The position numbers and the translations under genes are program-made. This document shows, piece after piece, positions 346 to 43,083 of a stretch of DNA of 58,292 bases. The DNA comes from Ruminococcus sp. (GTDB lineage: Bacteria > Bacillota > Clostridia > Oscillospirales > Acutalibacteraceae), in NCBI GenBank assembly GCA_017473775.1, contig JAFUJH010000071.1, forward strand, positions 1-58,292, in the 5' to 3' direction. Positions within the stretch are counted from its first letter, which is position 1, and every line of letters starts with the position of its first letter. The notes beneath the pieces are model-generated. The model was given only the letters and a program-made list of their open reading frames with translations, was not told where the DNA came from and did not search any database.

Positions 346-484
346 AATGAAGCGCATCTTCAATGCATGAAAAATGAAGCACACCTGCGGTGCGTGAAAA
401 ACCGGATTAAAAGCTTGATCTTCCGCGCTTTGCTTCATGGCGACGAAGGAGCCGCTTCGTGTTCGCGACAGCGAACGCTTCATT
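346..484. repeat. composite hairpin array A (spacer AATGAAGC)
   Basis: The word aatgaagc occurs directly at 346-353 and 373-380 and inverted (gcttcat, gcttcatt) at 432-438 and 477-484. Between the words sit small unrelated hairpins: gcat/atgc (354-366), gcac/gtgc (379-393), acgaag/cttcgt (443-460) and gttcgc/gcgaac (461-476). No gene-like reading frame with a ribosome binding site is seen. The architecture matches arrays B and C in this window. Confidence 0.7.
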
Positions 485-553
485 AAACCGAAAAAAGCGC
501 AGAAAAACAATAATCATATCAAAGACCTTATAGTGTGATGTGAACGTTTTTTC

Positions 554-675
554 AATGAAATTCGCCTTGCGGCGAGTGAAATATTACTTCGTAATATGAA
601 ATAGCTCACGCTATGAAATACGCTGCGGCGTATGATAGATTTATTTTATATCGAGCATACGCGAGATATTTCATT
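554..675. repeat. composite hairpin array B (spacer TGAAAT)
   Basis: The word tgaaat recurs at 556-561, 577-582, 597-602 and 614-619, each time followed by a different perfect mini-hairpin: tcgcc/ggcga, atattac/gtaatat, atagc/gctat and atacgc/gcgtat, with 3-4 base loops. An inverted word atttcatt closes the array at 668-675. The stems share no sequence with each other, only the pairing. The rest of 485-760 shows no gene; an isolated attgcgaaagcaat hairpin at 719-733 repeats the first hairpin of array C. Confidence 0.7.
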
Positions 676-9251: not shown

Positions 9252-9325
9252 GCGGATGTAGTTTAGTGGTAGAACTTCAGCCTTCCAAGCTGATCGTGTG
9301 GGTTCGATTCCCATCATCCGCTCCA
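9252..9325 (+). tRNA. tRNA-Gly (TCC)
   Basis: Acceptor gcggatg (9252-9258) pairs with catccgc (9315-9321). The anticodon loop is cttccaa with TCC, the T-loop is ttcgatt, the discriminator is T and CCA is encoded (9323-9325). Confidence 0.95.
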
Positions 9326-9588
9326 AAAAGAAAAAGCACCCAACAAGGGTGCTTTTTTCTTTTTGGACTTAGGAATGATGATGGGAATCGAAAGGGCGTG
9401 AAGAAAACAGGCTCACAGCCCCTGTCCCCCTTTGTCGGCATTGCCGACATTTCCCCCACACTGTGGGGGAATCTTCCTGCGGACTGTTTTTAGCCCGTCG
9501 CGATGATGAGACTTTTAAGTCAATACACGCCCCGTCTGACGAGAAGGTAGTTACTTCTTTATGACAGGCACATCATCCGCTCCAAAAA
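9312..9588. repeat. duplicated tRNA-Gly 3' end (att-like) flanking a gene-free insert
   Basis: The 18-base tRNA 3' end catcatccgctccaaaaa at 9312-9329 is repeated exactly at 9571-9588, and a terminator hairpin (9589-9616) follows the second copy as it would a tRNA gene. Inside, tcgattcccatcatc of the T-arm (9304-9318) recurs inverted at 9377-9391. The 241 bases between contain hairpins (tcggcattgccga, cccccacactgtggggg) but no gene. This resembles the footprint of an integration at a tRNA 3' end. Confidence 0.6.
9326..9366 (+). terminator. terminator after tRNA-Gly
   Basis: aagcaccc (9334-9341) pairs with gggtgctt (9347-9354), followed by TTTTCTTTTT. It begins right after the CCA. Confidence 0.85.
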
Positions 9589-9616
9589 CCGACTTGTTGA
9601 AACAAGTCGGTTTTTA
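9589..9616 (+). terminator. terminator after the second tRNA 3'-end copy
   Basis: ccgacttgtt and aacaagtcgg pair with a short loop and a T-run follows. It is probably the original terminator of the tRNA-Gly gene, displaced by the insertion. Confidence 0.75.
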
Positions 9617-9618
9617 TT

Positions 9619-9789
9619 CATTGCGAAAGCAATGGCATATCATCACGCGGCACGCGTGTATATCATCGCCGTAGGCGTATATCATCAGCCGTAGGCTGTA
9701 TAAAACACTTTCGCAATGATGATATACAAAACTCCGTTTTGATGATATGCAATTCTTACAGAATTGATGATATCCACAGCTTCGCTGTG
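9619..9789. repeat. composite hairpin array C, mirror-symmetric (spacer ATATCATC / GATGATAT)
   Basis: atatcatc occurs at 9637, 9660 and 9679; its reverse complement gatgatat occurs at 9718, 9741 and 9766. Left-half hairpins precede their spacers: cattgc/gcaatg, acgcg/cgcgt, cgcc/ggcg and agcc/ggct. Right-half hairpins follow theirs: aaaac/gtttt, aattc/gaatt and cacagc/gctgtg. Loops are 3-5 bases. Also cattgcgaaag (9619-9629) recurs inverted at 9709-9719. The three left spacers can pair with the three right spacers, giving a long interrupted stem with side hairpins. Confidence 0.75.
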
Positions 9790-9942
9790 ATTAATATGTA
9801 AGGAAACGAATATATTTCAAATTTCCTTCACGCCCATCTAACGAGATGATGGTTACATATATATGACAGGCACATCACCGATATATACGCTGACGACCAA
9901 CGGTCGTCCCTACGCATTACATAAAAATTACCGATACAAAGT

Positions 9943-9986
9943 AAAATCGCCGTAGCATCTGTATTGAGAGCTACGGCGATTTTTTA
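9943..9986 (-). terminator. terminator of the flavodoxin operon
   Basis: aaaatcgccgtagc pairs with gctacggcgatttt across a 13-base loop; A and T runs flank both sides. It abuts the flavodoxin stop codon. Confidence 0.88.
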
Positions 9987-10409
9987 TTAAGCTAATGCGG
10001 CACCCAGAGATTTGCAGGCAGATACTGCCTCATCATCGGGAGATTCGTTACAGATTACGGAATCGCAGGCAATAACTGCTCCGTCTGCAATACAGGTCTC
10101 CTCCCAGTTACGCATCCATTCTCCGTCGCCCCAACCATAGGAGCCGAACAAAGCAAGCTTCTTGCCGCTAAGCTTCGGCTCACAGGACTCAAACATTGGT
10201 GCAAACTCTGTGTCCTCCAGTTCCTCTGCGCCCATTGAAGGACATCCAAATGCAATTGCATCGTATGCATCCATCATTGATGAGTCAAACTCTGCTGAGG
10301 TGAGAATCTCTGCTTCTCCGCCTTTTTCACGGACACCCTGTGCGACCGCCTGAGCCATTGCCTCGGTGTTGCCTGTGCCGCTCCAATACACTACTGCTAC
10401 TTTACTCAT
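9987..10409 (-). CDS. flavodoxin
   Basis: 140 residues, the normal length of short-chain flavodoxins. The FMN phosphate loop is WSGTGNTEAMA (about 9-19), and the later FMN loops are GCPSMGAEEL (about 55-64) and FGSYGWGDG (about 88-96). It carries low-potential electrons and replaces ferredoxin when iron is short. The ATG at 10409 is preceded by AAAGGTAGGAATTTCCT. It is downstream of the DUF3793 gene in one operon whose leader carries three DtxR-like operators, consistent with induction by iron limitation. Confidence 0.95.
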   Translation of the reverse strand: MSKVAVVYWSGTGNTEAMAQAVAQGVREKGGEAEILTSAEFDSSMMDAYDAIAFGCPSMGAEELEDTEFAPMFESCEPKLSGKKLALFGSYGWGDGEWMRNWEETCIADGAVIACDSVICNESPDDEAVSACKSLGAALA

Positions 10410-42045: not shown

Positions 42046-42054
42046 ATATTAGAA

Positions 42055-42256
42055 GTCTTTGAGGCGGGGTGAGATTCCCCACCGGCGGTATAGCCCGCAA
42101 CCACTGAGATGTTCAGTGCTGAACAGGTGAAAATCCTGTGCCGACGGTACAGTCCGGATGAGAAAAGATGAAAGGCAAGTTTTTTATAATGTATCATAGA
42201 TAAACTTGCATCTTATCTTAAAAATCAGTCCCTGCGGATTTCGCAGGGGCTTTTGT
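42055..42256 (+). promoter_or_regulatory. FMN riboswitch (RFN element) with terminator
   Basis: The aptamer (about 42055-42168) holds the conserved blocks gaggcggggtgagattcccc, accggcggtatagcccgc, ggtgaaaatcctgtgccgac and ggtacagtccggatga. Then gcaagttt (42175-42182) can pair with aaacttgc (42202-42209), and a terminator (gtccctgcg/cgcaggggc then TTTT, 42229-42255) lies before ribU. High FMN should end transcription. Confidence 0.95.
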
Positions 42257-42926: not shown

Positions 42927-42934
42927 AAGTAATT

Positions 42935-43083
42935 ACAGAGTAGAAGCTGTGCGTGAAGTGCCTGAGGGACGGGGAGTTGCCTGCAGGACGAAGGATTTTT
43001 CACTAAATCTGCGGTACAGCTTTCGCATCCCGCTGTTTATGAAAGACTTTGGGACAGAACCTCTGTGTTCTGTCCTTTTTTCT
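42935..43083 (+). promoter_or_regulatory. tetrahydrofolate riboswitch with terminator
   Basis: Aptamer 42935-43036: P1 acag/ctgt, then agtagaagctgtgcgtgaagtgcc, ggacggggagttgcc, ggacgaagg, gcggtac and gcatcccgctg, the folT-type THF motif. A terminator (ggacagaac/gttctgtcc plus T-run, 43052-43083) follows and ends before the folT ribosome binding site. Binding of THF should lower folT transcription. Confidence 0.92.

Follow-up and report, generated by a model that had tools for sequence, protein, structure and literature searches.

A mirror array of mini-hairpins behind a tRNA gene of Ruminococcus sp. as the probable gene-less array of an IVP mobile element

What is the nature of a row of small hairpins in which one short word is repeated three times and then, in mirror order, three times as its reverse complement? 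The question is raised by a locus in a 58,292-nucleotide stretch of Ruminococcus sp. DNA (GenBank assembly GCA_017473775.1, contig JAFUJH010000071.1, positions 1 to 58,292), the whole of which we refer to as the window. The initial annotation of this DNA had described three linkers and three reverse complements joined by mini-hairpins, and all of these parts could be placed, at 9616-9793. Three features described below were not part of it: the pairing of the first hairpin with a middle segment, the setting behind a tRNA and a terminator-like repeat, and the connection with IVP proteins.

The window array consists of seven mini-hairpins and two mirrored sets of linkers

The array (array C) spans about 180 bases (9616-9793) and comprises seven mini-hairpins, three copies of the eight-base linker ATATCATC in its left half and three copies of the reverse complement of this linker, GATGATAT, in its right half. 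Its parts are as follows.

9619-9634, unstranded: hairpin H1, CATTGCGAAAGCAATG
9637-9644, plus strand: left linker L1, ATATCATC
9644-9658, unstranded: hairpin H2
9660-9667, plus strand: left linker L2, ATATCATC
9667-9677, unstranded: hairpin H3
9679-9686, plus strand: left linker L3, ATATCATC
9686-9698, unstranded: hairpin H4
9708-9718, plus strand: segment M, CTTTCGCAATG, the reverse complement, without mismatch, of 9619-9629 (5' arm plus loop of H1)
9718-9725, plus strand: right linker R1, GATGATAT
9727-9741, unstranded: hairpin H5
9741-9748, plus strand: right linker R2, GATGATAT
9750-9766, unstranded: hairpin H6
9766-9773, plus strand: right linker R3, GATGATAT
9775-9789, unstranded: hairpin H7, followed by ATT (GTG type)

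The word TGATGATAT occurs nine times in the window, five of them inside the array, against 1.04 expected, and none of 100 shuffles reached nine. The window array is real and is not accounted for by chance.

Around the array, and further upstream in the window, the following features were recognized.

9252-9322, plus strand: tRNA-Gly(TCC) gene upstream of the array (Rfam RF00005, 72.1 bits)
9323-9570, plus strand: separate small insert of about 250 bases between tRNA and array, with a direct repeat at its end
9584-9615, unstranded: terminator-like perfect inverted repeat (A5-stem-T5) directly 5' of the array
347-483, plus strand: second mirror array, with ATGAAGC/GCTTCAT as linker; tRNA-Glu and a terminator-like repeat (303-344) precede it
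553-674, plus strand: third array, linker ATGAAAT, with a single ATTTCAT at its right end (668-674), also behind tRNA-Glu

Eighteen bases of the tRNA 3' region are duplicated, 9312-9329 recurring as 9571-9588, where the insert ends, and comparable inserts were seen by eye behind tRNA-Gly(TCC) in relatives. A simple terminator scan does not report the repeat at 9584-9615, presumably because its T-run belongs to the stem; array copies behind many tRNAs are likewise preceded by terminator-like repeats.

The insert itself represents a second small element of about 170-250 bases, recognized by eye behind tRNA-Gly(TCC) in the window (9323-9588) and at L373, L379, L381, L384, L385, L389 and L393. Its parts are the tRNA T-arm in antisense, a hairpin resembling ACAGTCCGGTGGACTGTTTTTAG and a tRNA 3' end that is restored, and tandem copies occur at times; by eye, other tRNAs also carry inserts resembling it. 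Elsewhere in the window, a lone H1-like unit follows the third array (713-743), and FMN and THF riboswitches lie at 42051-42173 and 42934-43037.

Copies of the array are spread over gut Clostridia

The array plan was found in many gut Clostridia. Further copies, for which the initial annotation had proposed a search in this genome and its relatives, were readily obtained: the three-linker pattern matches at least 119 stretches in public genomes. Among the matches listed the titles are those of Clostridia MAGs, mostly "Clostridia" or "Oscillospiraceae bacterium", many being named after ruminant gut samples, and three viral-labelled contigs also match. The loose two-linker pattern matches 23 of 59 whole genomes, counting our own; some of these hold true arrays, and in others the match is due to chance. 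In a linker-blind scan, which required two left copies of any word and two right copies of its reverse complement, 972,576 bases (mostly from loci fetched because they bear arrays) gave 107 places with ATATCAT..ATGATAT mirror arrays; mononucleotide-shuffled sequence gave none with any word.

We worked with 125 unique canonical copies of array C, 114 with a clear left end and 110 with at least 40 nt of downstream sequence. Three left and three right linkers are present in 85 of the 125. A tRNA search restricted to the upstream side and the same strand placed 62 of the 114 copies directly behind an intact tRNA and 10 more within 80-500 bases of one; 13 lie too near the edge of their stretch to be judged, and in 29 no tRNA was found, although several of the latter start with the apparent last bases of a tRNA. 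In GTG-type copies (e.g., L036, L053, L056, L068 and L123) a stretch resembling the tRNA T-arm (like GGGTTCGAATTCATACGC) recurs by eye behind H7 in several cases, and in L036 it is followed by an IS200-like transposase frame, also seen by eye.

The stems covary while the linker stays constant

According to the initial annotation, only pairing and not sequence is kept in the stems, and the covariation test bears this out. We used 84 distinct copies in which the left linkers number exactly three and the close right ones three or more, and conservation of pairing was well above permutation for H1, H2, H3, H5 and H6. For H2, 66 of 83 copies (80%) retain an outer stem of 4 bp or longer, as do 73 of 84 for H3 (87%), 80 of 84 for H5 (95%) and 78 of 84 for H6 (93%); with the 3' halves reassigned among copies, the values are 28, 12, 26 and 43%, respectively. 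The H1 stem is kept in 81 of 84 copies (44% when permuted). Complementarity of at least 9 nt between M and H1 was found in 69 of 84 copies, compared to 23% on permutation, and H1 and M mostly change type jointly (CATTGCG, AAGCCGCAGG, AAGCCGACAGG, AAGCCGATAGG).

The linker, in contrast to the stems, is constant in sequence over these 84 copies. Its main variable base is an A or C in L2 or L3, and the partner base does not follow: a C in L3 is met by G in R1 in two copies, versus 31 C/T and 11 A/G combinations, and a C in L2 faces T in 21 of 21 cases. The proposal that the two halves pair into one long interrupted stem with side hairpins thus stands in part. Such a stem is the predicted minimum-energy fold of the window array both as RNA and as DNA, and the single-strand fold is far more stable than that of dinucleotide shuffles (z -6.45 as RNA, z -6.91 as DNA), but the copies of array C do not support compensatory change between the spacers within this family, and we rejected linker-linker covariation as proof of the long stem. 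Judged from the sequences, the spacers act as a conserved word, and complementarity of left and right halves is visible only between families with different words.

Sister types include the Rfam family Gut-1

The linker-blind scan returned other words on the same plan, namely ATGAAAT, ATGAAGC, ATGTAAT, ATGATGT, ATGAAGT and ATGAATT; GTGATATT, GCGATATA and AACATC are further ones, the other half carrying the reverse complement in each. One of these sister types is already named. Rfam Gut-1 (RF01706) corresponds to the left half of the type with linker ATGAAAT, so that the earlier statement of knowing no named element class with this plan has to be amended. Like the window array, Gut-1 is a chain of short hairpins joined by one repeated linker. 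It differs in the linker, ATGAAAT instead of ATATCATC, and the Rfam model spans the left half only (77 nt); the window array scores 23.4 bits with the RF01706 covariance model, under the cut-off of 50. The complete Gut-1 form (L075 and C28, C80 and C92 of our genome) has mirror halves and sits behind tRNA terminators, and by eye L075 and C80 have an M segment that pairs with H1. In the third array of the window the left half is a Gut-1 match above the gathering score (65.2 bits at 553-624), while the right half has a decayed look.

Gut-1 was described as a likely RNA from human gut samples only (Weinberg et al. 2010, PMC2864571). Our genome has 24 Gut-1 matches, nine of them above the cut-off and several forming mirrored pairs. 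A tRNA precedes eight of the nine at a distance of no more than about 300 bases; of the weaker matches, roughly half are located elsewhere or belong to other words. None of 14 control genomes gave a match above the cut-off, and one had a weaker match.

The GCGATATA type is found at nine loci of our genome by a strict pattern, none of them near a tRNA match, and we therefore rejected the explanation of a simple tRNA-bound element. Among these loci the IVP gene is frameshifted in L421 and truncated in L419; none was seen in the others. A CRISPR was rejected as well, on repeat structure, as there is no constant repeat with spacers, and attC sites were dropped on their general features.

IVP genes stand behind mirror arrays and match them in word

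What accompanies the arrays? Among 76 open reading frames downstream of array-C copies, 12 form one cluster, and a member typed from it matches PF05635 (57.9 bits), the family of 23S rRNA-intervening sequence proteins (IVP, also S23p). In our own genome PF05635 matches at three loci, C90, C92 and C43 (the last in two pieces and below the cut-off), and by eye all three lie directly behind mirror arrays with the words AACATCG, ATGAAAT and GCGATATA, one each, ATGAAAT being that of C92. The contig of the window array has no IVP match, whereas relatives with the same array type do have an IVP. The IVP of the array-C type was not found in our genome, its sole trace being an apparent decayed gene start behind a second array-C copy (by eye).

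We assembled 97 of 103 IVP match rows from our genome and its relatives, leaving out six short or split ones, and scored the upstream regions for mirror arrays, one mismatch being tolerated. A score of at least 7 was reached by 37 of 97 IVPs; no dinucleotide shuffle out of 291 reached it, and among 222 real windows taken as control from mntP loci of the same genus two did. At a score of at least 6 the corresponding numbers were 54, 5 and 14. Detectors that require exact matches reported arrays at 4 of 16 IVP genes (17 of 33 loci being without an ORF by the motif used) and at 4 of 29, where more are plain by eye.

In a tree of 95 IVPs (two rows being too short after trimming) all 46 array-labelled rows fall within one clade of 50 (SH-aLRT 90), in a tree that has few columns and many open forks. 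The unlabelled rows of this clade are L323, L326, L331 and L333; related repeats are seen by eye in L323, L331 and L333, in L323 in one orientation only. The 11 linker classes, which are our own grouping of k-mer hits, some from one-sided repeats, and include labels set by eye for L265, L266, L271, L273 and L332, require 10 changes on the labelled rows of the tree, the minimum possible. Joint inheritance of adjacent DNA could explain part of this congruence. As far as sequence comparison goes, a word that changes in step with the IVP family points to a new partnership of protein and repeat in gut bacteria.

The closest solved relative of IVP is 2rld (E 3e-36 with the array-C profile), for which five chains are listed, suggesting that IVP may be a pentamer; 2gsc, also with five chains, matches weakly (E 0.38). 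Avd of diversity-generating retroelements has the same fold as IVP. The spacer RNA of these retroelements is reported to fold and to recruit the bRT-Avd complex (PMC12875486). Nucleic-acid binding by the IVP fold would therefore be plausible. To our knowledge no catalytic activity has been assigned to IVP, and an enzyme for mobility would thus be missing or supplied by the host.

In L048, L052, L111 and L171, all with array C, and in the C92 locus of our genome (L201), the stop codon of IVP overlaps or abuts the start of a frame that is different each time. Some of these frames are, by eye, lipoprotein-like or zinc-ribbon-like, as if the element bore a changing cargo.

The array is probably an orphan array of an IVP mobile element

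We consider it reasonably probable that the window array is a copy, orphaned and without a gene, of the array that acts in cis in a mobile element whose protein belongs to the IVP family (PF05635, S23p, a four-helix bundle), with the linker as the word that IVP would recognize. A constant word, its match to a protein subclade and varied stems fit a recognition element best. The linker of 7-8 bases would be the site bound by an IVP oligomer; through the intervening hairpins the strand might fold so that one site after another is exposed, and with mirror halves one strand would offer sites on both flanks of a fold. Since the 5' arm of H1 could pair either within H1 or with M, two exclusive folds may exist. 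With this complex the element, or copies that consist of the array alone and are helped in trans, would be able to insert, frequently right behind tRNA terminators, and candidate routes of such movement are IVP action, host enzymes and recombination at tRNA genes.

The comparison with relatives bears on movement. It covers tRNA-Gly(TCC) at 30 loci, our own and 29 from 56 genomes with a match, of which 25 relatives fit the tRNA pattern. In none of the 25 is there an array behind this tRNA in the sequence read, which extends to about 330 bases at most, is cut off within about 50 bases in three cases and is short in a few more. G068, G028 and G020 also share the flanking gene (91, 89 and 83% identity), which makes orthology firm there; the other relatives match in tRNA and leader only, and for them it is likely. 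Several copies at different places, together with absence at orthologous sites, are the marks of a mobile repeat, and both were found here. The relatives without array diverge too much beside the tRNA to define an insertion junction or a target-site duplication. At the MntP locus (C28 of our genome) the relatives read there have neither tRNA nor array and thus give little information on precise insertion. At 18 of 114 loci the array is preceded by one and the same terminator type; these loci belong to different genomes and follow nine kinds of tRNA, no tRNA being found at six of them.

Promoter-like boxes accompany part of the copies

A different explanation would be that the arrays are operators or leaders through which IVP controls its own gene and a set of neighbours, so that their spread would reflect a regulon and not transposition. 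Arrays do stand directly 5' of IVP start codons. Moreover, H7 ends in TTGATT exactly 17 bases 5' of a TATAAT-like box in 41 of 110 array-C copies, compared to 0-7 copies for the remaining offsets in the range 10-24. The 41 copies all belong to the TTG type (70 copies), and the GTG type (32 copies) contributes none. Thus, the -10 box is missing (28 copies) or weak (one copy) in 29 of 70 TTG-type copies and absent in 32 of 32 GTG-type ones. In the window array no TATAAT-like box stands 17 bases after H7, two of six letters fitting. A regulon is further opposed by the absence of copies behind the same tRNA in relatives, and by the fact that most of the 76 downstream reading frames belong to no cluster. 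On balance we regard regulation as an unlikely explanation of the arrays. Since the array lies upstream of a promoter in some copies and would be a 5' leader at other IVP loci, either DNA or RNA may be bound in the preferred reading, that of an IVP mobile element.

No strand stands out as RNA

Could the array instead be a structured noncoding RNA gene or domain, whose transcription would come from tRNA read-through or from the opposite side? The strong RNA fold (z -6.45) and the covariation of stems would agree with this, Rfam types Gut-1 as an sRNA, and PMC2864571 lists it as a likely RNA. Transcription into the array would start from a weak promoter-like match at 9820-9793 on the minus strand, yet this is the only match in a promoter scan of 9330-9990, versus a mean of 1.6 in shuffles, and a terminator-like repeat stands between tRNA and array. 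The stems also lack a G-U excess. Among 39 single-mismatch stems of 282 unique hairpins we counted 14 with G-T, 10 with A-C and 15 with other mismatches (P 0.54), so that neither strand stands out as RNA. In the H1-M helix there are 14 G-T versus 1 A-C mismatches, with 11 of the 14 G-T at the last pair. A strand-specific G-U signal was rejected on these grounds, the stem counts being about equal and the H1-M excess lying mostly at the last pair. In our opinion, a noncoding RNA is a rather improbable identity for the array.

The position of many copies between a tRNA terminator and the next promoter is reminiscent of E. coli BIMEs and would suit a DNA spacer, an insulator against supercoiling or read-through between a strong tRNA gene and the following promoter. 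However, 14 of the 31 tRNA transcription-unit ends of our genome bear a mirror array of some type (one of them short, by eye), so over half do not, the nine GCGATATA loci all lie away from tRNA matches, and the match of linker to IVP would be left unexplained; we find this account very unlikely. Least credible of all is a functionless, neutral product of tandem duplication and template switching, a process that can repair palindromes to perfection and make inverted copies, because 85 of the 125 canonical copies retain three linkers on either side, the stems vary around a constant linker, and the word is congruent with protein subclades.

IVP genes outside the array clade are flanked by plain heptads

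Returning to the mobile element of the IVP family, we asked what stands beside IVP genes outside the array clade. Tandem repeats of period 7 lie just upstream of 28 of 46 such genes, compared to 0 of 51 inside the clade; as control, lag 5 was found in 2 genes and lags 6, 8, 9 and 10 in none. The reverse complement of the heptad repeat lies behind the gene in 14 of 19 heptad-type IVPs with enough downstream sequence. Heptad repeats beside IVP genes occur in cyanobacteria, Bacteroidota and Clostridia. Inverted repeats flank five of eight plasmid IVPs from named records (Nostoc C052, Dolichospermum, Bernardetia, Nostoc TCL26-01 and Euhalothece); of the others, repeats occur in both orientations in Planktothrix and in the same orientation in Treponema, and Monoglobus has a broken gene and no repeats. 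Three phage- or viral-labelled contigs carry, by eye, an IVP with an array (L401, L408, L409). On a Monoglobus plasmid the IVP gene lies between the gene of a restriction subunit S and hsdR (L405), and on a Nostoc plasmid between cas2 and cas1 (L410).

A wider reading, which we put forward tentatively and would give somewhat less than an even chance, is that IVP/S23p and short-repeat arrays form one broad two-part bacterial system, in which a four-helix-bundle protein would be paired with a cognate word of 7-8 bases in inverted arrays. Its plain form would be the tandem heptads around the gene (Nostoc, Dolichospermum, Bernardetia and many Clostridia), and its derived form the words separated by mini-hairpins in gut Clostridia. 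The system would spread into intergenic sites such as tRNA terminators, and Gut-1, some cyanobacterial heptamer repeats and the 23S rRNA intervening sequences might be its faces.

Comparison with known systems

Gut-1 and IVP are each known; their join, the mirror plan with M and the match of word and protein are new within the open-access literature, as far as our searches reach, and the titles and abstract beginnings searched there gave no paper that joins IVP with repeat arrays. The link between word and IVP turns the question of IVP function into a binding assay with built-in specificity controls, own versus foreign word, and recasts Rfam Gut-1 as half of a bilateral, probably mobile element.

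Among known repeat systems, REP/REPIN sequences with RAYT are dispersed palindromes with a dedicated partner protein, inverted arrays and gene-less copies, and their hallmark is a conserved palindrome with a GTAG-type foot together with a Y1 RAYT gene. The array system resembles them in its dispersed palindromic repeats, putative partner protein family, inverted orientation and gene-less copies. It differs in this putative partner, a four-helix bundle instead of a Y1 transposase, and in palindromes that are unconserved in sequence around a constant spacer word. BOX elements of Streptococcus pneumoniae are likewise built of modules, forming intergenic hairpins whose inner units vary in number. 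We know, however, of no BOX element with a mirror plan of constant linkers, nor of a partner protein of the IVP family for it.

IVP/S23p has been known mainly as a reading frame inside 23S rRNA intervening sequences, the protein family thus being the same by name (PF05635). Inverted repeats border these elements, and the window array has mirror halves. The arrays, however, lie outside 23S rRNA and are built of short repeats and hairpins, and IVPs of the array clade stand beside inverted arrays, not inside them. The intervening sequence of Coxiella is described as a selfish element with complementary bordering sequences that is cleaved by RNase III in vitro (PMC4990558).

Finally, TAACTGA-type heptamer repeats in Beggiatoaceae, cyanobacteria and Bacteroidetes stand before genes, are patchy across phyla and have, to their author, no evident transfer mechanism (PMC4679880); the main text of that paper makes no mention of 23S, helix bundle, S23, intervening or avd. 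They resemble the arrays in being 7-base repeats, as found beside heptad-type IVP genes, and differ in that no hairpins lie between the repeats. IVP would be a candidate partner for such heptamers, whose horizontal spread is without an evident mechanism in that account.
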